A program made the position numbers and the translations under genes. 64,000 nucleotides of DNA from Nitrospirota bacterium (GTDB taxonomy: Bacteria > Nitrospirota > Thermodesulfovibrionia > Thermodesulfovibrionales > Magnetobacteriaceae), in contig JADFXJ010000001.1 of the NCBI GenBank assembly GCA_015233615.1, forward strand, positions 1-64,000, read 5' to 3'. The notes under the pieces were generated by a model, which was not told the DNA's origin, ran no database searches, and saw only the letters and a program-made list of their open reading frames with translations. How positions within the stretch are numbered: position 1 is the stretch's first letter; the number at the start of each line of letters is the position of its first letter. This document shows, piece after piece, positions 8,072 to 53,236 of this stretch.

Positions 8072-8749
8072 TTAAAGGTTATAGAGTTCGAAGTTTGCTC
8101 TGTCCAGGATAATTATCTTTCCATCCGATTCCGTTATCAAGCCCTCTTTTTTGAACTTGCTGATAGTGCGTATGGAGGTTTCCACGGTTGTGCCTACCAT
8201 GTCGGCTATGTCCTGCTTGGTTAATTTCATGTCTATATGGGTGCCTTTGCCCTCCTCGCCGCAGGTCTTGTCAGCCAGTTTCAGCAAAAGGGCTGCCACC
8301 CTGGATTCGACCCGTTCGAGCGCGATGTTTTTCAGCGTTTCGTATGAGTTCTTGATCCTCTCGCCAATTATGGAAGTTAAGGTAAGCATTAAGTGGGGAA
8401 ACCTGTCGAGTAACTTCAGCAGGCCTTTTCTGGATATTCTGAGAACCTTTGAACGTTCCATCGCTATAGCGTTAGCGGGGTAGGGTATACCTTTGAACAC
8501 CGCTACTGCTCCGAAAAGCTCTCCCGGCTGTATGAGTTCGAGAATTATTTCTTTCCCGTCGTGGGATAATTTGGTTATCTTAACTTTTCCTTCCGTTACG
8601 ATGTAAAGCCAGCCCGAGTTTTCGCCCTCCGAAAATATCATCTCCTTTTTATTTAAAGAGATGTTGGCGAAATAAGGCATTACCTCATCGAAATCACTTT
8701 CGGTGAAGCCGGAAAAAAACTCCGTTTCTTTAATATTTAACGGTGCCAT
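8072..8749 (-). CDS. Crp/Fnr-family transcriptional regulator
   Basis: This 225-residue protein has a cyclic-nucleotide-binding-like beta barrel at about 10-120 (PGELFGAVAVF), a dimerisation helix, and a winged helix-turn-helix at about 165-215 (LTKQDIADMVGTTVETSIRT). It lacks the N-terminal cysteine cluster of true FNR, so it does not carry an FNR-type 4Fe-4S switch. The recognition helix reads ETSIR, keeping the Glu and Arg of the FNR ETISR motif, which suits TGAT half-sites. Two TGAT-N4-ATCA palindromes occur elsewhere in the window, at 26335 and 40702. The ligand (haem/NO, a small molecule, or none) cannot be told. It stands alone and converges on the kinase pair. Confidence 0.9.
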   Translation of the reverse strand: MAPLNIKETEFFSGFTESDFDEVMPYFANISLNKKEMIFSEGENSGWLYIVTEGKVKITKLSHDGKEIILELIQPGELFGAVAVFKGIPYPANAIAMERSKVLRISRKGLLKLLDRFPHLMLTLTSIIGERIKNSYETLKNIALERVESRVAALLLKLADKTCGEEGKGTHIDMKLTKQDIADMVGTTVETSIRTISKFKKEGLITESDGKIIILDRANFELYNL

Positions 8750-8973
8750 ATCTTTATAAAACTTAAATATTCTAACTCATCGGCGATGAAAAAGTATCTA
8801 TTTAAAAATAACATATTCGAAAGTAACTAATAAATGTAAAATGGATATTTTGAGGCCACCCGACAAAGAGCGAATGTTAAAGTTCAAAAAAGTGTTGCGA
8901 CTCTGGTATTATTGATCATGTAATATTTAGATCGTGTAATACTTAGTATATAATCCTTAACGGAGGGGACTTT

Positions 8974-24448: not shown

Positions 24449-25921
24449 CTATTTGTAACGCTTGTCGAAGTCTTCCTTACGTTTCATTCTTTCCGCCATA
24501 ACGTCGGGGTCTTCTTTGCCTAAGGACCACTTGTGGTTAGTCGAATTCAGGACTTCGGTTAATAATGCGTCGAGCTCGCCTGCCAGTTTTTGGGCCTCCG
24601 GCTTGCCGCTCTTTTTCCCTTGCTCGATGACTTCTTTAAGTTCGGGTACGTATTCGCCATAGAAGTGTTTGGCGATCTCGTAGTTACCGTGCCACTGGGT
24701 GTAATCCGGGGCCATCATGGAGGCTCCGTGGCGGGCGCGACGACCTTCGTGATGCCAGATCTCGAACCAGGTGTAGTCTATCTTGTGGGCGAATCCGGCA
24801 TATCCCTTACCTTCTATAGCCTTGAGCACTTCAGTTGCTTTACCAAAGAGTTTTTCACCGGGTATTGCCCATTTCTCATTGTAAAGCTCCATTTCCGCCT
24901 CGTACTGGATATAGAAACCGTCTACGAAGTTAACGTTGTGGCAGGCGGCACAGACCTTCTTCATGTTCGCCATGCGTACGTCGCCGGTGATTTTGGTTGA
25001 TTCCAGGTTCAATTGTTTGTCCGTCTCGTTAGCCAGTGTAGGATGTGCAGGGCGATTGTTCCACTTGATGCGCAGGCCTACGTTGTGGGTAACCGGCATG
25101 TCCTTGGTGGCCGACATGTGGCAGGTTGCGCAGGTCGGAGCCGCCGAGTAATCCTCGCCAACCACCCACTTGGCGGAGTCGAGGTTCATCTTTGCCTTGT
25201 TTGCACGGAAGTTGATGCCATGCTTGGATTCGTTGTAGATTTCGATCTGCGGGTGGTCGGGCCCCATGTGGCATTTGCCGCAGTTATCGGGCTGACGGGC
25301 CTGGGCTACCGAAAATTCGTGGCGCTGGTGGCATGCAGAGCAGCTACCCTCGGAGCCGTCGAGGTTTATACGCCCAATGCCGGTATTTGGCCACGTTGCC
25401 GGGTCGAGCTTGCCGTTGGCGTCAACCTTTACTTCGGTGCCATGGCATTGCCAGCAGCCATTGACTGCGGCGGCGGATACACCCTTGGGAAAGGCCTTTG
25501 TTTTCATCCCGTTGTTACCCTCTGCTACGTCTGCAAGGACGTTGTCCAGGGAGCCGGTTATGCGGCCGGCCTTGGAGTGGTGGGAACTCATAAACTCCTC
25601 CGCCTCTTTGCCGTGGCACCTGGCACAATCAAGAGGCGATACGATAACGGATATGAAGAACCCGTTATGTTCGAAACCGCCTTTGGCGTCCTTTTTCGCC
25701 TCATGGCACTCGTAGCAGCCTACGTTTGCCCTAAAATGCTTACTGTTTCCCCATTGCTGGTAGATGTTTACAGTAGTGGAGCTGTGGCACTCCACGCATT
25801 TCTTGCTTTCGTTCGATAATTCCTTAGGAAGGCCGCTCTTTGTTTCTCCGTATGCTCCAAATGATATGAGGAGCAATAAAAACAACCCCGCGCCCGAAAA
25901 CATTAAAACCCGCTTAACCAT
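24449..25921 (-). CDS. Octaheme c-type cytochrome, hydroxylamine oxidoreductase family
   Basis: The 490-residue exported protein has a signal peptide (about 1-25) and exactly eight CxxCH haem motifs (CVECH, CYECH, CARCH, CWQCH, CSACH, CGKCH, CATCH, CAACH) with extra His residues between them. The C-terminal region FEIWHHEGRRARHGASMMAPDYTQWHG is typical of the HAO family. Depending on the catalytic haem-Tyr crosslink, such enzymes oxidise hydroxylamine or hydrazine, or reduce nitrite or hydroxylamine to ammonium. A Tyr occurs in PDYTQWHG, but I cannot confirm by eye that it aligns with the crosslinking Tyr. No HaoC/CycX tetraheme quinol partner is adjacent. The divergent promoter region holds a TGAT-N4-ATCA site. 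Periplasmic; probably nitrogen respiration. Confidence 0.9.
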   Translation of the reverse strand: MVKRVLMFSGAGLFLLLLISFGAYGETKSGLPKELSNESKKCVECHSSTTVNIYQQWGNSKHFRANVGCYECHEAKKDAKGGFEHNGFFISVIVSPLDCARCHGKEAEEFMSSHHSKAGRITGSLDNVLADVAEGNNGMKTKAFPKGVSAAAVNGCWQCHGTEVKVDANGKLDPATWPNTGIGRINLDGSEGSCSACHQRHEFSVAQARQPDNCGKCHMGPDHPQIEIYNESKHGINFRANKAKMNLDSAKWVVGEDYSAAPTCATCHMSATKDMPVTHNVGLRIKWNNRPAHPTLANETDKQLNLESTKITGDVRMANMKKVCAACHNVNFVDGFYIQYEAEMELYNEKWAIPGEKLFGKATEVLKAIEGKGYAGFAHKIDYTWFEIWHHEGRRARHGASMMAPDYTQWHGNYEIAKHFYGEYVPELKEVIEQGKKSGKPEAQKLAGELDALLTEVLNSTNHKWSLGKEDPDVMAERMKRKEDFDKRYK

Positions 25922-26334: not shown

Positions 26335-26352
26335 CTATGATGTGGATCATAG
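26335..26352. promoter_or_regulatory. FNR/DNR-type operator, site 1
   Basis: CTATGAT-GTGG-ATCATAG is a perfect 18-base palindrome with the TGAT-N4-ATCA spacing of FNR-clade regulators. It lies between the divergent octaheme cytochrome and cyclase genes and shares the core ATGATGTRRATCAT with the site at 40702. Confidence 0.6.
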
Positions 26353-26537: not shown

Positions 26538-27269
26538 ATGCTAAGTGAAGAATCGGGCGAATTTGGCGAATGGGAAGACCTTTCCGTCTCTCTTGAAGAT
26601 GGAATGGTTATGTGGCCCGGTGATCCGCCTTTTTCCATCGGGCGGATAATAGACATGGAAAAGGGTGGCTCTCTGAATCTGTCTCGTATCGAACTGACTG
26701 TACATGCCGGTACTCACGTAGATAGTCCACTCCATTATCTGCAAACAGGTAAGTCCATAGACGAAGCACCCTTATCCGCGCTGATTGGGCGGGCACGGAT
26801 CGTCGAAATAAGAGATCCGGAATCGATAAAAACCGCAGAACTCCGTTCAATTGGTCTCCAAAAGGGTCAAAGGATACTATTTAAGACTGCCAATTCCACT
26901 AAGCACTTGAAGAATATGAAGCAAATGAAGAATATAAGCTATATAAATCCTGGCGCTTTTGCGGAGGATTTTATTCATTTAACCGTGGAGGCGGCCACCT
27001 ATCTGGTTCAATGTGGGGTGCAAACGGTTGGTATAGATTACCTTTCGGTTGGGGGGTATAAAGATGACGGAGACGAGGTACACCGGATACTGCTTGGGGG
27101 TGGGGTGTGGATTATCGAGGGGCTCGATCTTTCGATGGTAACACCGGGAGATTACGAATTCATTTGCCTGCCATTGAAAATAACAGGTGCAGAGGGTGCG
27201 CCGGCCAGGGCAGTGGCCAGGAAGCTGATAAGTGGAGGAAGCCATAAGGCAGTTATTGCAACCATATAG
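26538..27269 (+). CDS. Cyclase-family hydrolase (kynurenine formamidase-like)
   Basis: The 243-residue protein belongs to the cyclase/formamidase family: WPGDPPF near the N-terminus, the metal-binding HAGTHVDSPLHY (HxGTHxDxP) at about 56-67, the GIDYLSVGGYKD motif, and LLGGGVWIIEGLDL near the C-terminus. Members are Mn/Zn amidohydrolases acting on N-formylkynurenine or cyclic and carboxylated substrates. No tryptophan catabolism genes are adjacent, so kynurenine itself is doubtful. It is divergent from the octaheme cytochrome gene and shares its regulatory region. A Lys/Asn-rich insert (KHLKNMKQMKNIS) at about 123-135 is coded by short repeats. Confidence 0.88.
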   Translation: MLSEESGEFGEWEDLSVSLEDGMVMWPGDPPFSIGRIIDMEKGGSLNLSRIELTVHAGTHVDSPLHYLQTGKSIDEAPLSALIGRARIVEIRDPESIKTAELRSIGLQKGQRILFKTANSTKHLKNMKQMKNISYINPGAFAEDFIHLTVEAATYLVQCGVQTVGIDYLSVGGYKDDGDEVHRILLGGGVWIIEGLDLSMVTPGDYEFICLPLKITGAEGAPARAVARKLISGGSHKAVIATI

Positions 27270-28383: not shown

Positions 28384-29109
28384 TCACGTCCCGATTACCT
28401 TTCCGTCGCGCATCTCTATTATCCTGTTTACGTACGGTTTGTCGTACACCAGTGGGTCATGTGTTGCGATGACTATGGTCTTGCCTTCGCCGTTTAGCCT
28501 GGAAAGCCTGTCCATGAGGTCTTCCGAGAGTTTCGTGTCGAGGTGCGAGGTCGGCTCGTCGGCCAAAATGATTTCGGGGTTGTTAATGAGAGCCCTGGCT
28601 ATGCTAACCCGTTGTTTTTCACCACCGGAGAGTTTTTCGACGTGATAGTTTCTCTTCTGGTATATGTTGAGGCTTTCGAGTATCGCGTCTGCACGCTCTT
28701 TCATCTCATGTATGGGAATAGAGGTGGGGTAGAGCGGGAGCATTATGTTTTCCTTAACGGTGATTCCTTTAATCAGGTTGAAGTGCTGGAAAATGAAGCC
28801 AAACGTCCTGCGCCGTATATCGGTAAGGAAATGCTCCGGCAGTTTCGCCACGTCTTTACCGTTTACCATGACTTTACCGGACGTGGGTCTCGTCATGCAG
28901 CCGATTATTCCCAGGATGGTAGTCTTACCGGAGCCGCTTGGACCTTTCAGGACGGCCATGCTGCCTTTGGCGACGCTCAGGGTAACCCCATCCAGAGCCC
29001 TCATCTCGTCCGCCTCGCCGGCGTTAAAGATTTTTGATACTCCTTCTACGGCTATGATTGCCGACGGTGCGGTTATTGCGGTTATTGTGGTTGGTGTCGG
29101 GTATGCCAT
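28384..29109 (-). CDS. ABC transporter ATP-binding protein (LolD/MacB type)
   Basis: The 241-residue protein has Walker [11 protein letters not shown]-loop [11 protein letters not shown], signature [15 protein letters not shown], Walker [13 protein letters not shown] and the H-loop ATHDP. The first 25 residues include a Thr/Ala/Ile-rich stretch coded by short direct repeats before the fold starts at [13 protein letters not shown] overlaps the stop of the permease gene upstream, so the two are coupled. Such ATPases pair with FtsX-like permeases that drive mechanotransmission or periplasmic export. Here the partner is the gene at 29113-30264. Confidence 0.95.
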
Positions 29110-29112
29110 GGA

Positions 29113-30264
29113 TTAACTCCTCATTACGGTGTCCGGGTCGGTTACGGCAGCCTTCCAGGAAGGTATTATGGTGCTGGCAAGATATGGTATGACGGTAAGG
29201 AAAAATATGACGAATATTTGATAGAGGTCAATGTAAGGAATCGGATTGAAGGGCGGAAAGAGTACCGACCATCCCTTTAGTACGGGAGCAAAAAGGGCTG
29301 CCCCGAAGTAGAACACGTGTATGTAGGCCAGTATCGAGCCAGTCAGGAACGACGTAAGCGATATGGCCATGCCCTCCCAAAACTTCAACTTCAGCACGTC
29401 TGTCGTCTCCCATCCGATGGCTTTTAAAATACCAATCTCCTGCCGCTCCCCGGCGCTCATCCCCGTGGCTTTGTCCCATGCGAATATGGCAAAGGCCAGC
29501 AGCGGGCCGATGAACATGGTAAGGGCCATGCCGCCGCGCCAGTTAAAGACGTTCTCGTAAGTGCGTACTATCTCCGAACGCGTAATGGGTCTGGTGTCCG
29601 GGTAGTCCCGCCTGATTTTCATCGCTATAGTAGGTACCTCCGAGGCGTTGCTTACGTGTACTATAAGGTCGGTTGCCATGTCTTTGGGCAAGGCAAAGAA
29701 GTTTACCAAATCGTTTTTATCCATCACTACGAGATCATTTGTTAGTATGGCCGAATCTGCGGTGAAAATCCCCACTACCTTCAGCGATACCTTCTGCTGC
29801 GGGTTTATGGACAGAAAGAGCACGTCGTTGAGGTCGGTCAACCTTACGTCTGCTACTCCCTTACCGATGGCGCACTCGCCCGGGCCTTTTGGCAAAGTGC
29901 CTTTTACCATGTGCAGCGCGTCGATATTTCTGGCTATAAGGGTATAGTTGCCCCCGGTGAGGTTATCGTAGTAGTAGCCCCAGTATCTCGGCTCTACAGA
30001 AGAAACTCCGGGGATGGACAGAATCTTTTCCGCGTAGCCGACAGGGATGAGGTCATGTCTGCCGGCGCTCATACGCTGGACAATTAGCTCCGGAGCCTCG
30101 ATAAATACGTCCATCGCTTCCTTTTTCAGCGACTGGGTTAGAAACAAAAGTGAAGTGAGCGTCGCTACGATTATACTGTAAATGAACACGAGAGAAAAAT
30201 TCTTATACTTCTTCCTTAGCAGGGAAGAAAGTGTGAATTCGAGTATGCGAAAGTGATTATTCAG
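29113..30264 (-). CDS. FtsX/MacB-like ABC permease, probable CTG start
   Basis: The permease has the FtsX layout: an N-terminal membrane helix, a large periplasmic domain (about 60-235 of the track protein, with GVSSVEPRYWGYYYDN), then three membrane helices with FLTGSILAYIHVFYFG and the C-terminal PSWKAAVTDPDTVMRS coupling motif. The track starts at GTG 30189, but the frame is open 25 codons further, and RILEFTLSSLLRRK-like sequence (RILEFTLSSLLRKKYKN), typical of FtsX N-termini, lies there. The only plausible initiation codon is CTG at 30264, six bases after AAAGGGGG and overlapping the upstream TGA. It belongs with the ATPase at 28384. Confidence 0.85.
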   Translation of the reverse strand: MNNHFRILEFTLSSLLRKKYKNFSLVFIYSIIVATLTSLLFLTQSLKKEAMDVFIEAPELIVQRMSAGRHDLIPVGYAEKILSIPGVSSVEPRYWGYYYDNLTGGNYTLIARNIDALHMVKGTLPKGPGECAIGKGVADVRLTDLNDVLFLSINPQQKVSLKVVGIFTADSAILTNDLVVMDKNDLVNFFALPKDMATDLIVHVSNASEVPTIAMKIRRDYPDTRPITRSEIVRTYENVFNWRGGMALTMFIGPLLAFAIFAWDKATGMSAGERQEIGILKAIGWETTDVLKLKFWEGMAISLTSFLTGSILAYIHVFYFGAALFAPVLKGWSVLFPPFNPIPYIDLYQIFVIFFLTVIPYLASTIIPSWKAAVTDPDTVMRS

Positions 30265-30551
30265 TTATTCCCCCTTTGAGGCCCGACGATGGAGCCGGCC
30301 GGGAAATGGTCCATGGAAGATGGAAAATCCTGAAAAGCCGAAAAAGTGTCGGCCTGGGAAGGATGTCTCGTATACCTGGCCTCGGTGAATACGGCAAAGT
30401 CCGTTAGAGAGAGCTTCCTGACCAGTTCTCTCTTCGATTGCACCTCCGCATTTCTGGCGGCGATAGTGTGATTTGCGTCTGTGTAAAGGAAGGCGATCAC
30501 GATTATTTCGATGGCAATGAAGGAAAAGAATATTTTCGATTTTATCATCAT
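30261..30551 (-). CDS. Small membrane-anchored hypothetical protein
   Basis: The 96-residue protein has one N-terminal membrane helix (about 5-24) and a short periplasmic region with no recognised motif and no cysteine. It lies between nosL and the permease and its stop overlaps the presumed permease start. Position suggests an accessory subunit of the NosL-linked transporter. AAGGA precedes the ATG pair at 30551/30548. No function can be read from the sequence. Confidence 0.6.
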   Translation of the reverse strand: MMIKSKIFFSFIAIEIIVIAFLYTDANHTIAARNAEVQSKRELVRKLSLTDFAVFTEARYTRHPSQADTFSAFQDFPSSMDHFPAGSIVGPQRGNN

Positions 30552-30655
30552 TTCCTTAATTATGGCTACAATTATGGTTACTATTACTAAATTATGGCTA
30601 CTATGGTTTATTCCCGGGGCCTATTCGAAACCGTTATACCCGCTTATACATCATC

Positions 30656-31153
30656 TTACTTCATGTGATGCATGTGGCCGTCGGGTATGTCTGCATCCGT
30701 AACTTCGGAGAATTTTAAGGCCTTAACGCCTTTATGGTCCGACGTGAAGGTCTTTACTTTGTCGTTGGTTATGGCTACGAGCTCTTTACCCATGGGGCCC
30801 ATTACGTCACTGCCTGACACGAAGGTGACGCCATCGGCTTTCATGACTTTAGTCGAATAATATTCCGTAACGTAAATATCCGAAATATCGGCACTGGTCT
30901 TGCTCTTGTTATACTTAGGTATGTCCAGGTAGTACTTGAACATGTCCTTTGGACCGTCGAAAAAGGCGTAAGTACCGTCTTTAAAAATAATTTGCGCGCT
31001 CCATTGAGTATATGGGTGTACCAGCATGCCGCATACGGGGCACTTGTCCTTAGAAGTTGGTTTTAACGGATCTGCCGCTAATGCCATCGAAACTGATAAA
31101 AAAACGGCTGAAACTATACTTAAGACAATTAAAACGAATGACTTCCTTCTCAC
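30656..31153 (-). CDS. nosL: NosL-family copper-binding protein
   Basis: The 165-residue product has a signal peptide (about 1-22 from the GTG at 31153) and the NosL core: CPVCGMLVHPYTQWSAQI, FKDGTYAFFDGPKDMFKYY, and a C-terminal FTSDHKG region plus HMHHMK. NosL is a periplasmic Cu(I) chaperone for nitrous oxide reductase, but NosL-like proteins also occur without nosZ. No nosZ is in this window. The N-terminus has no lipobox Cys. Two GTGs are in frame; the second (31153) is five bases after GGAGG, while the first (31159) lies inside that GGAGG. First gene of the five-gene operon. Confidence 0.88.
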   Translation of the reverse strand: MRRKSFVLIVLSIVSAVFLSVSMALAADPLKPTSKDKCPVCGMLVHPYTQWSAQIIFKDGTYAFFDGPKDMFKYYLDIPKYNKSKTSADISDIYVTEYYSTKVMKADGVTFVSGSDVMGPMGKELVAITNDKVKTFTSDHKGVKALKFSEVTDADIPDGHMHHMK

Positions 31154-31737
31154 GTCCACCTCCGTTACCTGTCGTTACCCGTTTGATTTATGCTAATCTT
31201 TATAGTATGTGTTTACCTTAAGATGTATTTATGATGTAGGCACGATATTACGATATACACACATCTATAATATGTAGTTTACATAAAAGGTTCGCAGATT
31301 GTAAATAAACCCCGAAATAAATACTGTCTGCATATTTCTTCTATGATGGAGAACAAATTTACCGCGGGCAATCCCTCCGATGCCACGTAGAGAAATATTA
31401 CGATATTCCTGAAAATAGAGCCTGGGGCTTCGTTAATAGTAAGGTACTAACCCTTTTTCGATGTTGGTATACCGTAAGGCTTTTGATGGGAGGGTTGCCA
31501 ACCCCTGAGTACCGGAGTTAGCGACCCCTTAGTTTGGCCTACTGTCTCCCCTTTTGAGGAGAGCTCCCTTTTTGAGGAGAGACATCTATGGTTCTTAACC
31601 CGGCAGCGGCGGTTGGATAGGCCAAAGGTAATTCCGTAGGGCCTTCCACGCCTGTGAGTCCGATCATGTCACGGACCATGCTTGCTTACCGGCAAGTGCC
31701 CACAGGCCACAGGCACCGTCCGCTTCAGGGTTTATGG
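31154..31737. other. 584-base gap with no supported gene; possible transposase remnant
   Basis: The half next to nosL is AT-rich and presumably holds its promoter. The segment about 31490-31750 has the composition of a gene end, and on the minus strand reads RRNNDAFIAINPEADGA then CGLWALAG, which faintly recalls the DRDxNAAxNI tail of IS605 TnpB. The duplicated hairpin-like TTTTGAGGAGAG at 31554 and 31574 is also present. No intact frame remains. Confidence 0.3.
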
Positions 31738-39907: not shown

Positions 39908-40660
39908 TTAGGTGGCTTGTGGTTTGCGGGTTCTCAGGTACTTTATACCGGTCCACACCAGGACAATGGCGAAGACGACTCTCAGCGTTCCGTCCTGGAG
40001 GTATCGTGCAAGGGTTGCGCCCGAATATGTGCCTATAATTATGCCGGGTATGAGGCCTGCCAGGAGGCCAATCTGAACGTTGCCGAGTTTCCAATGCGTG
40101 TAGGCTCCAACCGACCCCGCGGGAACCATGGCCAGGAGAGACACTCCCTGGGCTAAGTGCTGCCCAAAACCCAGCACCAGTACCATGGCCGGGACCATGA
40201 TAGTACCACCTCCAACGCCCATCATGCCGGAGAGGAATCCGGTGAATACGCCGGTTATAATGAGTACTGCGCCCTTTAAAACTCCGGTAACGGCCGCATC
40301 GCCGTGGGTAATGTAGGGTTTCAGCAACATGATTACGGATACCAGCAAAAGAAAACCGCCGAATGAGCGCTTTAGCTTCCACTCCGGCAGAGAGTTGGCA
40401 AAACGGGCTCCCCATCTGGCTGTAAATACGGCCGAAACTGCGATTAATATTGCCGCAATCACGTCCATGCTCCCCGATCGGGCATAGGTAAAAGTTCCGG
40501 CCAGGCCGGTGAACACCAGAGCAACCAGAGAGGTGCCGTGTGCCTTGTGCTGTCCCAATCCGAGAAACTGCACCATCAGAGGGATCATGATCACGCCGCC
40601 GCCAAGACCCACGAGTCCCCCGAAAACCCCGGATGCAAGTCCTATTATCAGGCTGACCAA
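39908..40660 (-). CDS. TauE/SafE-family anion exporter
   Basis: The 250-residue integral membrane protein has the internal repeat of the family: LASGVFGGLVGLGGGVIMIPLMVQFLGLGQHKAHGTSL in the first half and FLSGMMGVGGGTIMVPAMVLVLGFGQHLAQGVSL in the second. About eight membrane helices are expected. Members export sulfite, sulfoacetate or related anions. TTG at 40660 follows AAAGGTGG by eight bases. It is divergent from the HPP gene and shares a promoter region that has a TGAT-N4-ATCA operator. Because the HPP family moves nitrite, the cargo could be a nitrogen or sulfur oxyanion; that is unproven. Confidence 0.92.
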   Translation of the reverse strand: MVSLIIGLASGVFGGLVGLGGGVIMIPLMVQFLGLGQHKAHGTSLVALVFTGLAGTFTYARSGSMDVIAAILIAVSAVFTARWGARFANSLPEWKLKRSFGGFLLLVSVIMLLKPYITHGDAAVTGVLKGAVLIITGVFTGFLSGMMGVGGGTIMVPAMVLVLGFGQHLAQGVSLLAMVPAGSVGAYTHWKLGNVQIGLLAGLIPGIIIGTYSGATLARYLQDGTLRVVFAIVLVWTGIKYLRTRKPQAT

Positions 40661-40701
40661 AGTGTAACCACCTTTAGGGTAAGCACTTTTGTATATAAAG
40701 C

Positions 40702-40717
40702 ATGATGTAAATCATGT
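40702..40717. promoter_or_regulatory. FNR/DNR-type operator, site 2
   Basis: CATGAT-GTAA-ATCATG is a perfect 16-base palindrome with the same core and spacing as the site at 26335. It lies 42 bases from the TauE start and about 100 bases before the HPP start. Confidence 0.6.
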
Positions 40718-40818
40718 ATATTCATGGTCTGTTAATGATATAACAAGAATATAGGAAAATGCACTAATGAAAGTGCAACAGGAAGACACACTTACGAAAA
40801 TATACTAAGAGAAAAGAG

Positions 40819-41367
40819 GTGAGTGCCATCAAAGAGTATTTTAACAAGATGAGGGGTACGAGCAAAAGTCCCGGTGCCGTAAGTTCGGTCGAGATATTCT
40901 GGTCCTGGACGGGCGCCTTTGCCGGCATATCGGCCGTGGCGTTGATTCACTACAAGATATTGTCCGGCACCGGCTATCAAATGGTAATCGGTTCCTTCGG
41001 AGCGTCCGCGGTGCTGATATACGGCGCTATAAAGAGCCCACTGGCACAACCGAGGAACCTGATAGGCGGCCACGTAATATCGGGTATTATAGGCGTGGCC
41101 TCTTATACTTTGTTTCACAACGAAATGTGGCTTGCCTCCTCCGTGGCAGTAGCTACAGCTATAGCCGTGATGCACGCCACGAAGACCCTTCATCCTCCCG
41201 GTGGTGCTACCGCCCTTATCGCAGTAATAGGGGGGGAGAGCATCCATAAGCTGGGCTTTCTCTACGCCATAGTACCGGCCGGCACGGGTGCCTCCATAAT
41301 GCTCGTCGTAGCACTCCTTGTTAACAACATTCCCAGGACGAGACGCTATCCTGAGTTCTGGCTATAA
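40819..41367 (+). CDS. HPP-family membrane protein (putative nitrite transporter)
   Basis: The 182-residue protein has four or five hydrophobic segments and the family signature HPPGGATALI at about 126-135, plus GSFGASAVLIYG and PRNLIGGH. HPP proteins of cyanobacteria and chloroplasts have been linked to nitrite transport. The GTG start at 40819 overlaps its own GAGG, so the true start is uncertain and an in-frame ATC at 40828 or ATG at 40849 is possible. An FNR-type operator lies upstream. With the octaheme cytochrome under a similar site, nitrite traffic is the most coherent role. Confidence 0.88.
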   Translation: MSAIKEYFNKMRGTSKSPGAVSSVEIFWSWTGAFAGISAVALIHYKILSGTGYQMVIGSFGASAVLIYGAIKSPLAQPRNLIGGHVISGIIGVASYTLFHNEMWLASSVAVATAIAVMHATKTLHPPGGATALIAVIGGESIHKLGFLYAIVPAGTGASIMLVVALLVNNIPRTRRYPEFWL

Positions 41368-48704: not shown

Positions 48705-49166
48705 TACACCCCCACAATCGGCATTATAAAAGGCATACCCGATATAACTCCGTCTAATGGATTTATGCTTAACGATGATTTTCTGTAACCCTTCATGCAA
48801 CAATCCCTCCTGCTGTTTTTACTAATCAGAACCGCTACTCATCAGATACCAATCAGAACCGCCTGGAATCAACATACATTACCGACAACGATGTCAATAT
48901 TGTAACTATCCTATTCTAATGTAACATAATCTGACGCGATGCTCAACTCTTTTGTTGTCCTTGCCCTTGCCCGGAATGACGAAGAAGGGAAGGGACAATA
49001 TTGCGGCCCGCCAATACCACCGTCACGGGGGGGGTAGGGGGAGGGCGGCAGACGGCTCTATCCGGCAGTGACGGCGGAGGGGAGAGGAGGGGAGAGGATT
49101 TTTTTTATTCTTATCCTCTTTTCCTTCATTTTGTTATATAATATAAATAAGAGGGGGTATTTAGTG
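48705..49166. other. 462-base divergent gap with G-quadruplex-type run
   Basis: This region separates the divergent Usp-SulP and hydrogenase operons. It contains G8-TA-G5-A-G3 at 49027-49045, which fits a four-run quadruplex motif, then AT-rich sequence with TATATAATATAA at 49133 that could hold the hydrogenase -10. No ORF is supported. Confidence 0.45.
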
Positions 49167-50333
49167 ATGAAGGGGCTAAAAGATTGCACCCTGAATTGTC
49201 AATTGTCCCGAAGAACTTTCCTTCAGTTTTGTTCCGTTATTGCTGCAACGTTAGCTCTTCCCTCCGGCTCGGTGTCAAAAATAGCTGAAGCCATCGTAAA
49301 TAAACAAAAACCTTATGTCGTTTGGCTGGAGTTTTCCGATTGTGCAGCCGACACGGAAGCTCTTCTCAGAGCGACGAATCCCGCGGTCGAAAACGTTCTC
49401 CTCGACCTCATATCCATCGAGTACCACGAAACCATTATGTCACCGTCCGGTGCCGGTGCCGAAAAATCTCTGACGGACGTAGTAAACCAGCATCGGGGTG
49501 AGTACCTGGCCATTGTCGAGGGGGCCATACCCACTGCAAACGCAGGTGTGTACTGTTGCGTAAGCGGCAAAACGGCACTTGAGCGAGCCCGCGAGGTATG
49601 CGGTAACGCCCGGGCTGTCATTGCAGTTGGCTCTTGTGCAAGCTTTGGCGGCCTGGCTGCTGCCGTGCCGAATCCAACCGCTGCGGTGGGCGTAAAGACG
49701 GCAGTTCCCCAGGCCAACGTGATTAATCTGCCAGGTTGTCCCGTCAACCCGATAAACCTGACGGCACTTCTTGTCCATTACCTGACGTTCGGGAGTTTCC
49801 CGGCCCTTGACAACCTGAGCCGTCCCCTCTTTGCATATGGCAAACGCATTCACGACAACTGCGAACGCCGTCCCCACTTCGACGCCGGGCAGTTCGTGAA
49901 ACACTGGGGAGACGAAGGACATCGTCTCGGCTGGTGTCTCTACGAGATGGGATGTAAGGGGCCCCAGTCGTACATGAACTGTCCGACGGTTCGGTTCAAT
50001 CAGGGGGTAAGCTGGCCCGTTATGTCAGGCCATCCATGTTTTGCCTGCGCCATGCCGGACAGTTGGGACGCTCTTGGGCCCATTTATTCGCGCCTGCCAA
50101 ACGTAAAAGGGGCGGGACTCGAGGCGGCTGCCGATACATTAGGATTAACGCTCGTGACGGGTGCCGCCGCGGGAGCAGTCACCCACGCCGCCATTCGCTT
50201 ACTGAAGTCAAAACGGGAAAAGCCCCGCCACGGCGAGCCGACGGTCGAAACGGATTATTATAAATCGAGCAGCACCTCCATCGAAAAAAAAGTTCACAGA
50301 AGAATTCACAAAAAAAGAGAGATTAATCCATGA
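49167..50333 (+). CDS. [NiFe] hydrogenase small subunit, proximal-cluster Cys replaced by Asp
   Basis: The track start at 49068 is too long; ATG 49167 follows GAGGGGG and gives 388 residues with a Tat signal (LSRRTFLQFC). The electron-transfer chain is that of group 1 uptake hydrogenases: proximal-cluster ligands at C59 with GSCASFGG and LPGCPVNP, and the distal and medial sets in RIHDNCERRPHFD, EMGCKGPQSYMNCPTVRFNQG and MSGHPCFACA. The expected second Cys of CTGC is Asp (SDCAADTEALL, C59-x-x-D62). The extra Cys of the O2-tolerant six-Cys proximal cluster is absent. A basic tail may replace the usual C-terminal membrane anchor. The TGA overlaps the large-subunit ATG. Exported, H2 oxidising. 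Confidence 0.93.
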   Translation: MKGLKDCTLNCQLSRRTFLQFCSVIAATLALPSGSVSKIAEAIVNKQKPYVVWLEFSDCAADTEALLRATNPAVENVLLDLISIEYHETIMSPSGAGAEKSLTDVVNQHRGEYLAIVEGAIPTANAGVYCCVSGKTALERAREVCGNARAVIAVGSCASFGGLAAAVPNPTAAVGVKTAVPQANVINLPGCPVNPINLTALLVHYLTFGSFPALDNLSRPLFAYGKRIHDNCERRPHFDAGQFVKHWGDEGHRLGWCLYEMGCKGPQSYMNCPTVRFNQGVSWPVMSGHPCFACAMPDSWDALGPIYSRLPNVKGAGLEAAADTLGLTLVTGAAAGAVTHAAIRLLKSKREKPRHGEPTVETDYYKSSSTSIEKKVHRRIHKKREINP

Positions 50334-52039
50334 CAAAATTGGTATTTGATCCCATCACACGCATAGAAGGGCACCTTCGCGTAGAGGTGCAGGTCGATGG
50401 CGGTAAAGTTACCGACGCCTGGGTCTCGGGCACTATGTGGAGAGGAATCGAAAAGATTCTTAAAGGACGCGACCCACGGGAGTGCTGGGCCATCACCTCG
50501 CGCATCTGCGGAGTATGTACGACGGTACATTCGACGAGTTCCGTAAGAGCCGTAGAAGACGCATTAGGGATAGACATTCCCGATAATGCCCGCGTGATTA
50601 GAAACATTATTACCGCCGCCCAGTTCGTTCAGGACCACGTCATCCACTTCTATCACCTCCATGCCCTGGACTGGGTGGACGTGGTAAGCTCACTGAAGGC
50701 GGACGCCGCCCAAACCGCTTCCCTGGCACAGTCGCTATCTCCCTGGCCAAACGCCACCGCAGGCTACTATAAGGGCGTGCAGGACAGGATTCGAACGCTT
50801 GTACAGAGCGGCCAGCTTGGCCTCTTTGCAAACGGCTACTGGGGACACCCGGCCTTTAAACTTCCTCCGGAGGTAAACCTCATGGCGGTAGCCCACTATC
50901 TGGAAGCCCTCAAGTGGCAGCGGGACGTTATTGCGATTCATGCCCTACTGGGAGCTAAAAACCCCCATCCCCAGACCTTTTTGGTCGGCGGTATGGCCAC
51001 CCCCATAGACCCTAACAGCCAAAACGCCATCAACGCCCACACCCTCGCCACGCTGAAATCTCTTGCCGAAGAGGCCCTGGAGTTCGTAAAGCACGTGTAT
51101 CTGCCGGATCTTCTGGCCATCGCCTCATTTTACAAGAACTGGGCGTCCATAGGCGCGGGCGTAGGTAATTACCTTTCCTACGGAGAGTTTCCCCGCGACT
51201 CGGTACACAATTCGACGAACACGTGGCTACCGTCAGGCTTCATACGCTTTAAAAACATTGGCGCCATAGAGCCGGTAGACCAAAAAAAGGTGGCCGAAGA
51301 CGTCCTTCGGGCCTGGTACTCATATACCGGCGGCGACGGCATACCAAAACATCCCTACGATGGTGAAACCACGCCCAATTACACGGGACCGACGCCTCCC
51401 TACGAATTTTTAGAAACCGACCGGAAATACTCGTGGGTCAAAGCGATTAGTTACGACGGCGTTCCTGCGGAGGTCGGGCCCCTGGCGAGAATGCTCGTGG
51501 CTTACGCCAACGGTCATAAACGGGTTCGGGAACTGGTGGGACTGGTACTGGCCAAATTAGGTGTCGGCGTGGAATCTCTCTTTTCCACGCTAGGGAGAAC
51601 CGCCGCCCGCGGCATCGAAACCCTGGCCGTTGCGGAAATGCTCCCCGTTTGGATAGACGAACTTGTGGCAAACATCAAAGGAGGAGACTACCGAATCCAC
51701 AACGGTGAAAAATGGGAACCCAACACCTGGCCGGCCGAGGCACGCGGTTTTGGTTTCCACGAAGCCCCGCGCGGCGCTCTGTGCCACTGGATAGTTATTA
51801 AGGACAAAAAAGTGGCAAACTACCAATGCGTCGTACCGAGCGGTTGGAATGCCTCACCCAGAGACGTCGCGGACAGGCGGGGCCCTTACGAGGAAGCACT
51901 CGTGGGAACCCCCGTCGAAGACGCGGAAAAACCCCTGGAAATTCTCCGCACCATCCACTCGTTTGACCCGTGCATGGCCTGCGCCGTTCATCTCATAAAT
52001 AAAACGGGAAAGGAACTATCCGTCATAGGTGTGCGTTAA
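50330..52039 (+). CDS. [NiFe] hydrogenase large subunit
   Basis: The 569-residue protein has both nickel motifs, RICGVC in SRICGVCTTVHS near the N-terminus and DPCMACAVH near the C-terminus, and PITRIEGHLRVEV at the start. Fifteen residues after the final His (LINKTGKELSVIGVR) form the peptide removed by the maturation protease after nickel insertion. The cognate protease is encoded two genes downstream. It shares four bases (ATGA) with the small-subunit gene. Closest overall layout is group 1 membrane-bound uptake enzymes. Export rides on the Tat signal of the small subunit. Confidence 0.96.
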   Translation: MTKLVFDPITRIEGHLRVEVQVDGGKVTDAWVSGTMWRGIEKILKGRDPRECWAITSRICGVCTTVHSTSSVRAVEDALGIDIPDNARVIRNIITAAQFVQDHVIHFYHLHALDWVDVVSSLKADAAQTASLAQSLSPWPNATAGYYKGVQDRIRTLVQSGQLGLFANGYWGHPAFKLPPEVNLMAVAHYLEALKWQRDVIAIHALLGAKNPHPQTFLVGGMATPIDPNSQNAINAHTLATLKSLAEEALEFVKHVYLPDLLAIASFYKNWASIGAGVGNYLSYGEFPRDSVHNSTNTWLPSGFIRFKNIGAIEPVDQKKVAEDVLRAWYSYTGGDGIPKHPYDGETTPNYTGPTPPYEFLETDRKYSWVKAISYDGVPAEVGPLARMLVAYANGHKRVRELVGLVLAKLGVGVESLFSTLGRTAARGIETLAVAEMLPVWIDELVANIKGGDYRIHNGEKWEPNTWPAEARGFGFHEAPRGALCHWIVIKDKKVANYQCVVPSGWNASPRDVADRRGPYEEALVGTPVEDAEKPLEILRTIHSFDPCMACAVHLINKTGKELSVIGVR

Positions 52040-52081
52040 TGCCGGCTGTTCGTTAATGGATATTCGTTAAAGGACAATAAC

Positions 52082-52723
52082 GTGGCAAAGAAAATCTACG
52101 TCTGGTCGCTTACGGTACGCCTTACCCACTGGGTAAACGTCGTTACCGTAACTATTCTGTCGCTTACCGGGTACGCCATCGGTAATCCGGCCCTTTTTGC
52201 CGGCATGAGAGAATTCCTGCCCATGGCTACGGTACGATTTATCCATATCCTTAGTGCCTATATGCTTACGGCGAGCGTCTTTCTGCGTTTCTATTACATG
52301 AGTACGGAGGACGGATACGCCAGGCCCGGAGAACTTCTACCCTTGAAAAAAGAGCGGTGGCGGAGCTTTAGGGATGCTCTGTTTTTTTACATGTTTTTGC
52401 GAAAATCCCCGCCCTCTTATCCGGGCCATAACGCGTTGGCGGGAGTCAGTTACTTTTTTATTTTCATCGCCTTTGCCACCGAAATCGTTACCGGCTTTGC
52501 CCTCCACTCCCAAAGCCACCACGGGGTGCTTTGGTGGGTACTTGGCGGGTGGATGCTTAACTTTACCGACGCCATGTCGATTCGGCTTATTCACCACCTG
52601 TTAATGTGGTTTTTGTGGGTCTTTGTGGTGATTCACCTTTACATATCCGTCCATAACGATTGCTTTGAAAAAAACGGCCTGATCAGCTCCATTGTAAACG
52701 GATATAAAATCGTCGATGAATAA
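52082..52723 (+). CDS. Hydrogenase cytochrome b subunit
   Basis: The 213-residue protein has four membrane helices and the HyaC/HupC haem ligands: VRLTHWVNV in helix 1, RFIHILSAYMLT in helix 2, and two histidines in helix 4 (LIHHLLMWFLWVFVVIHLYISVHND). It anchors the hydrogenase on the periplasmic face and passes electrons to quinone. A short linker of tandem TTCGTTAA-type repeats separates it from the large-subunit gene. Its stop is followed by repeats of a GTCGATGAATAAG unit before the protease gene. Family and role are secure. Confidence 0.93.
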   Translation: MAKKIYVWSLTVRLTHWVNVVTVTILSLTGYAIGNPALFAGMREFLPMATVRFIHILSAYMLTASVFLRFYYMSTEDGYARPGELLPLKKERWRSFRDALFFYMFLRKSPPSYPGHNALAGVSYFFIFIAFATEIVTGFALHSQSHHGVLWWVLGGWMLNFTDAMSIRLIHHLLMWFLWVFVVIHLYISVHNDCFEKNGLISSIVNGYKIVDE

Positions 52724-52747
52724 GGTTGCCGATGAATAAGATCGTCG

Positions 52748-53236
52748 ATGGATAAGACTTGCCTGATAATCGGTCTTGGTAACGTCCTTTTGGGCGACGA
52801 AGGGGCTGGTGTGTACGTTGCGGAGGCGATCAATACCCGTTACGTACTGAGCGAGGGTACAAAAACCATCGACGGCGGCACTCTGGGGCTTGATCTTCTT
52901 CCCATCATCGAAGGATATGAAGAGGCCATTGTTATCGACGCCGTAAACTTTGGACGGGAACCCGGATACGTAGAGGTTTTCGACGGCGGGGATAGCGGAC
53001 TGGATTACGTACCCCGGTTTTCGTCACACCACGAGGGTGTTGGGGACATCGTTACGGCCTTAACCCTTTTGGGTGTATATTCCGAAGCAAAACCACCGCG
53101 TCTGTTTATCATCGGCATTCAACCGGGAGACATCGGAGAAGGTATCGGGCTTTCCGACGAGGCAAAGGCCGGTGTAGAGCGAGCTATCGGTATTGTCAGG
53201 CAGCGGCTGATGCTTTTCCCTACCGGCACCACTTAG
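52748..53236 (+). CDS. Hydrogenase maturation endopeptidase
   Basis: The 162-residue protein belongs to the HyaD/HybD family: GLGNVLLGDEGAGVYVAEAI with metal-binding Glu, VIDAVNFGREPGYVEVF with the second ligand Asp, and SSHHEGVGD with the third ligand His. It reads nickel incorporation and cleaves after the His of DPCMACAVH in the large subunit. It closes the four-gene operon in the standard order small-large-cytochrome b-protease. Hyp maturation genes are not in the window. Confidence 0.93.
   Translation: MDKTCLIIGLGNVLLGDEGAGVYVAEAINTRYVLSEGTKTIDGGTLGLDLLPIIEGYEEAIVIDAVNFGREPGYVEVFDGGDSGLDYVPRFSSHHEGVGDIVTALTLLGVYSEAKPPRLFIIGIQPGDIGEGIGLSDEAKAGVERAIGIVRQRLMLFPTGTT

Follow-up and report, generated by a model that had tools for sequence, protein, structure and literature searches.

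A conserved CRP/FNR-superfamily operator upstream of HPP and octahaem cytochrome genes points to a nitrogen-oxide stress regulon in Thermodesulfovibrionales

In a 64-kb stretch of DNA (the window) from a 4.0-Mb draft genome, the perfect palindrome CATGATGTAAATCATG occupies 40701-40716, where a TauE/SafE-type permease gene and an HPP gene diverge. The best explanation overall, and in our judgement a likely one, is that it represents a conserved Thermodesulfovibrionales operator of the CRP/FNR superfamily, used for class II activation by the regulator encoded at 8072-8749 in response to NO or nitrite stress. In the proposed mechanism, a dimer of this regulator would bind TATGAY-N4-RTCATA with its centre ~41.5 bp upstream of the transcription start, acting as a class II activator of the HPP gene. 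Through a second site at 26335 it would also activate an octahaem cytochrome gene, and the set of targets across the order indicates that these anaerobes thus answer nitric oxide or nitrite stress. At the level of sequence, the evidence consists of the motif, its conservation, the coherence of its targets, the promoter geometry and the linkage to the regulator.

The operator proper spans 16-18 bp, and 40658-40831 is the complete TauE-HPP intergenic region. In its longer form the operator reads GCATGATGTAAATCATGT (40700-40717, no strand assigned), with the core CATGAT-N4-ATCATG centred at 40708.5. The first-pass annotation had described a palindrome between these genes with a core common to a site at the octahaem cytochrome gene. 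Both observations are confirmed: the palindrome is present exactly as described, and ATGATGTRRATCAT occurs in the draft genome at exactly two places, the 40701 site and the octahaem cytochrome site. Within the window, ATGAYN4RTCAT matches only at 26337 and 40702. The numbers expected per window from the counts of each arm are 0.003 for CATGATN4ATCATG and 0.008 for TATGATN4ATCATA. Scored with a weight matrix made from the relatives' sites only, the 26335 site reaches 22.0 bits and the 40701 site 14.4 bits, and the next best score in the window is 7.5 bits. In 3 Mb of order-3 random sequence, no match reached 22.0 bits and seven reached 14.4 bits (~0.15 per 64 kb). The matrix score of the 40701 site alone is unusual but not overwhelming. 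Support for this site therefore comes from its position, its conservation and its promoter geometry.

The motif recurs throughout the Thermodesulfovibrionales (Nitrospirota) as TATGAY-N4-RTCATA. ATGATGTRRATCAT, with its two exact genome matches, is too narrow to serve as the motif. The sharpest test used 56 non-redundant loci for which the presence of an 8072 orthologue was the sole ground of selection. When the spacer of TATGAY-Ns-RTCATA was varied from 0 to 12 in these loci, all 31 matches fell at s=4. The shorter arms ATGAY/RTCAT give 43 matches at N4 and at most 3 at other spacers, and in the HPP loci the corresponding numbers are 12 and at most 1. An N4 peak is missing for FNR-type TTGAY/RTCAA in the regulator loci, as is any peak for TGTGA/TCACA. 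Across 61 genomes, 232 sites were found versus 52 for the reversed pattern; this control is not composition-matched and the spacer test is therefore preferred. The motif is thus a fixed-spacer palindrome with TGA and TCA half-sites, as in CRP/FNR-superfamily operators, and the 31 matches versus none agree with the earlier assignment of the operator to this type. In the genome-wide search the sites are enriched in promoters rather than frequent outside them, and the targets are functionally coherent across genomes, so that neither result counts against the first-pass reading. Sites in the window's own genome with 5-bp arms only were set aside; they are mostly within genes and near chance level (10 observed matches to ATGATN4ATCAT, versus ~6 per 4 Mb of order-3 random sequence).

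The position of the -10 hexamer provided insights into how the operator may work. Of 90 oriented promoters, 51 have a TANNNT beginning 21 or 22 nt beyond the 16-mer. At other offsets it is mostly found in 0-5 promoters, with smaller peaks at 4 and 26. With this spacing the predicted centre of the site is near -41.5, where CRP/FNR activators of class II bind, as expected of a class II operator of this superfamily. Hexamers in the window's own genome start at 22 nt for HPP (TATAAC), CO dehydrogenase (TATAAT) and CBS (TATCAT). A perfect inverted repeat between genes could also act as an RNA hairpin or terminator, a reading that we consider extremely improbable. The 6-bp stem is AT-rich and without a T run, the flanking genes are divergent, and the arms are constant while the 4-base spacer varies freely. 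Moreover, the constant spacing to the -10 hexamer in relatives puts the palindrome upstream of the transcript.

The HPP gene (TM_HPP, PF04982; 40819-41367, plus strand, 182 aa, GTG start) encodes a putative nitrite transporter and is a likely target of the 40701 operator. Its candidate -10 hexamer is at 40739-40744 on the plus strand, which predicts a transcription start near 40751. The divergent TauE/SafE-type permease gene (40660-39908, minus strand) is probably not a target. On its side of the operator there is no -10 hexamer at class II distance, so the operator most likely serves HPP. In the relatives examined, moreover, no TauE gene adjoins HPP, and on these two grounds TauE was rejected as a co-target, together with the earlier suggestion that anion export is under the same control. 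According to Maeda 2014 (cited by PMC7438415), cyanobacterial and chloroplast members of the HPP family transport nitrite, and a like role has been proposed for those of anammox bacteria (PMC7438415). It is because of the function reported for the cyanobacterial and chloroplast proteins that the window HPP can be read as a route of nitrite entry, and by this analogy the assignment is putative.

HPP homologues are present in 33 of the 61 genomes. In G055, which belongs to another family, TATGATTCAAATCATA lies ~120 bp upstream of HPP, the same distance as in the window. In six further genomes the site is upstream of a CBS-HPP operon, where it often faces a divergent cupin gene as well. The window's own genome has its CBS partner gene apart from HPP, with a perfect site of its own. 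These observations bear on whether the match at 40701 arose by chance in the HPP promoter, the motif being genuine elsewhere. A score of 14.4 bits does arise in random sequence at the rate given above, the outer pair of the site is C-G where the consensus has T-A, and in the window's own family the majority of HPP genes show no recognisable site. However, an operator in the HPP promoters of seven other genomes, the distance shared with G055, the class II -10 spacing and the operator at the CBS partner gene make such a coincidence very unlikely.

The second operator, CTATGATGTGGATCATAG (26335-26352, no strand assigned), has the octahaem cytochrome gene (24449-25921, minus strand) as its likely target. 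The cytochrome belongs to the HAO superfamily and contains eight CXXCH motifs. Among solved structures 4QO5 is nearest to it, and hydroxylamine oxidoreductases come next. The site is ~410 bp before the gene, with a weak -10 hexamer (TTAAAT, offset 21). It is kept in G005, 80 bp before the counterpart gene. The cyclase gene at 26538 was also considered as the target of this site and was rejected, the -10 hexamer being missing in that direction. Near the cytochrome gene, at 28384-31159, ABC transporter genes are followed by a gene for a small secreted protein (30656-31159). This protein has a CPVCGM motif and is NosL-like by eye; an NCBIfam search gave no match.

The best candidate for the regulator of the operator is the clade of the CRP/FNR-family protein encoded at 8072-8749 (minus strand) in the same window, 32 kb from the 40701 operator. 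The first-pass annotation had named the same gene, and its orthologues adjoin a motif-bearing target in many families. Orthologues (41-66% identity) are present in most of the 61 genomes, and the named relatives come from Candidatus Magnetobacterium casense, Magnetobacteriaceae, Thermodesulfovibrio and other Nitrospirota. These relatives place the window in the Thermodesulfovibrionales, most probably in the Magnetobacteriaceae. In seven families, the orthologue is convergent with a motif-bearing cbb3/NOR-like gene, and the motif is typically 55-110 bp before the start of that gene. Genomes with an orthologue have 4.1 sites on average versus 1.6 in those without (p=0.005; the genomes are related, so the p value is a guide only). 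The recognition helix GTTVETSIRT is nearly invariant in the clade and is FNR-like. Published co-variation in CRP/FNR proteins couples R180 to a G at position 3 of the site and E181 to an A at position 6 (PMC1274295). The 8072 protein has V at 180 and E at 181, and the site has A3 and A6, in agreement with this rule. From the linkage and the helix logic we infer that the operator is bound by the 8072 protein itself; the promoter geometry is that of activation, which is probably its mode of action rather than repression.

The linkage is not uniform. In the window's own genome, none of the neighbours of the 8072 gene is motif-bearing, and autoregulation was rejected, the promoter of the gene (8750-8973) having no site. 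Three genomes have an orthologue and no perfect site. The converse is seen in G054 (95% complete), where five perfect sites were found and neither an 8072 orthologue nor another CRP/FNR transcription factor was detected; either its regulator is missing from the assembly or the sites are read by something else. A genuine operator with another reader is a possibility for the window's own genome too, although an unlikely one. The reader might then be C19, the only other CRP/FNR regulator with a helix-turn-helix found there. It might also be a factor encoded in the 20% that the draft (79.9% complete) lacks, or a protein outside the CRP family such as an Rrf2-type NsrR. G025 also has a different CRP/FNR gene adjoining its CBS-HPP site. 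Yet C19 and the G025 factor carry R180, which predicts G3 (TGTGA-like) sites, and the NsrR motif has different arms and an N5 spacer (PMC1274295). The G025 protein, with the helix VREVVSR, was rejected as the general regulator for the same reason. No clade other than that of 8072 shows a link to the motif across many families, and we retain it as the best candidate. The earlier proposal that one regulator controls nitrite entry, anion export and nitrogen reduction thus holds in part, since comparative evidence supports it well for HPP and the octahaem cytochrome and not for TauE.

The wider regulon points to nitrogen-oxide and NO stress. Across the order, the site precedes genes for Hcp (two loci), hybrid-cluster-associated disulfide proteins (five), NorC/NorB-like proteins (four), HAO-like multihaem cytochromes (six) and Fe-S proteins that we take to be FrdX-like (six). 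For most target types a single example was compared with family models, and the names NorB and FrdX are a reading of the sequence. Further site-bearing targets are a cbb3/NOR-like subunit of 135-139 aa, a cupin, CBS-HPP and CO dehydrogenase; several sites are within genes or before housekeeping genes. Four sites with 6-bp arms were found in the window's own genome, one each upstream of HPP, the octahaem cytochrome, CBS and CO dehydrogenase. Another, with one mismatch, TATGAGTAAAATCATA, precedes the gene for a hybrid-cluster-associated protein (TIGR03980, E=6e-11, just under the model cut-off) adjoining the CBS gene. Hcp was not found in this draft (79.9% complete); 'Prismane' matches that had been considered as Hcp turned out to be CO dehydrogenases. 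The CO dehydrogenase under the operator (C98; L039, 1-1114, minus strand), an unexpected member of a nitrogen-oxide regulon, is closest to 7B7Q, presumably CODH-IV of Carboxydothermus, and its site recurs in another genome, G019.

Several neighbouring features were also observed. The cbb3/NOR-like membrane protein (MDRFVKNFI..HSHLMLLGWVSMMIYGVGYHILPRF; PF00115, 39 bits) resembles a fragment of subunit I of haem-copper oxidases or NOR and is unusually short for a stand-alone subunit. In the 27 loci of relatives where it was noted, its gene and that of the regulator are convergent, and the operator precedes it in nearly all. In the window, a NiFe hydrogenase cluster (49068-53236) encodes a large subunit, a cytochrome b, a maturation protease and a small subunit matching TIGR00391; no operator was found upstream of it. 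A repeated sequence (VIPNCIHSINFEANRRKLLDVR..) in the same genome (L051, 29-238; L255, 1486-1671) is apparently a dispersed repeat.

Targets such as Hcp, hybrid-cluster-associated, Nor-like and HAO-like proteins indicate a response to NO or nitrite stress, and from this regulon content we infer the signal. A genuine regulon that answers instead to oxygen, redox state or CO, as a general anaerobic switch, is conceivable and in our view clearly the less probable reading. It would account for CO dehydrogenase and haem-copper-oxidase-like subunits among the targets and for the FNR-like recognition helix. On the other hand, none of the cysteines is invariant among 15 orthologues of the 8072 protein, so the clade is not an Fe-S FNR; a conserved His or Cys haem ligand is not evident in the clade either. 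In its Hcp, hybrid-cluster-associated and HAO-like targets, the regulon agrees with NO/nitrite regulons already known (PMC1274295).

We therefore prefer NO or nitrite as the signal, and lean towards an undescribed NO/nitrite-stress regulon that spans the Thermodesulfovibrionales, including the magnetotactic Magnetobacteriaceae, and in which a new clade of CRP/FNR regulators has TATGAYN4RTCATA as an operator of its own. Shared regulation would link HPP, its CBS partner, the cupin and the small cbb3/NOR-like subunit, and likewise CO dehydrogenase and the octahaem cytochrome, to nitrogen-oxide stress. If so, HPP, CO dehydrogenase and octahaem HAO-family cytochromes would have a part in NO detoxification or nitrite handling, and the regulator would sense NO although it has neither conserved cysteines nor conserved histidines. 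A largely uncultured order would gain a regulon open to testing, for which the operator is defined, the promoter positions are exact and a candidate regulator is at hand.

The system resembles several known ones. A strict FNR has the operator TTGATN4ATCAA and conserved cysteines for a [4Fe-4S] cluster. The regulon described here is similar to that of FNR in its TGAT half-site register, N4 spacer, V/E/R recognition residues and class II activation. However, the half-site is ATGAY, and the 8072 clade lacks conserved cysteines and has I at the equivalent of S212. A strict FNR was rejected on the cysteines and the half-site, and the first-pass label 'FNR-type' does not apply in this sense. NsrR shares nitrosative-stress targets including hcp, and its motif gATGyAT-N5-ATrCATc (PMC1274295) has a superficial likeness to an ATG...CAT palindrome, but the arms and spacer differ and the regulator linked to the operator here is of the CRP/FNR and not the Rrf2 family. 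HcpR is a CRP/FNR-family regulator of anaerobes, with published operators wTGTGAN6TCACAw, TTGACN4GTCAA or GTAACN4GTTAC (PMC1274295, PMC5701242). The systems have in common anaerobic hosts, a CRP/FNR-type palindrome and hcp, FrdX-like, cytochrome and nitrite-related targets, and the HcpR core targets hcp and frdX-like are present here in relatives. They differ in the recognition helix and in the operator, TGTGA/TCACA and TTGAY/RTCAA having no peak in the regulator loci, and HPP, CBS, cupin and CO dehydrogenase are additional targets here. A full-text search, with incomplete literature coverage, returned no paper that joins HcpR with Thermodesulfovibrio or Nitrospirae. DNR, whose sites are TTGATN4ATCAA (PMC1274295), is likewise an FNR-like factor without an Fe-S cluster, with an N4 spacer and NO-related targets including nor genes. 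The sites described here have A at position 3, and the 8072 protein is only distantly similar to DNR (3dkw, 65 bits), so that neither the DNR operator nor a close sequence relationship was found. The regulon appears to work in an HcpR/DNR-like manner while falling outside the operator definitions tested, suggesting that it is a variant of the HcpR/DNR type.
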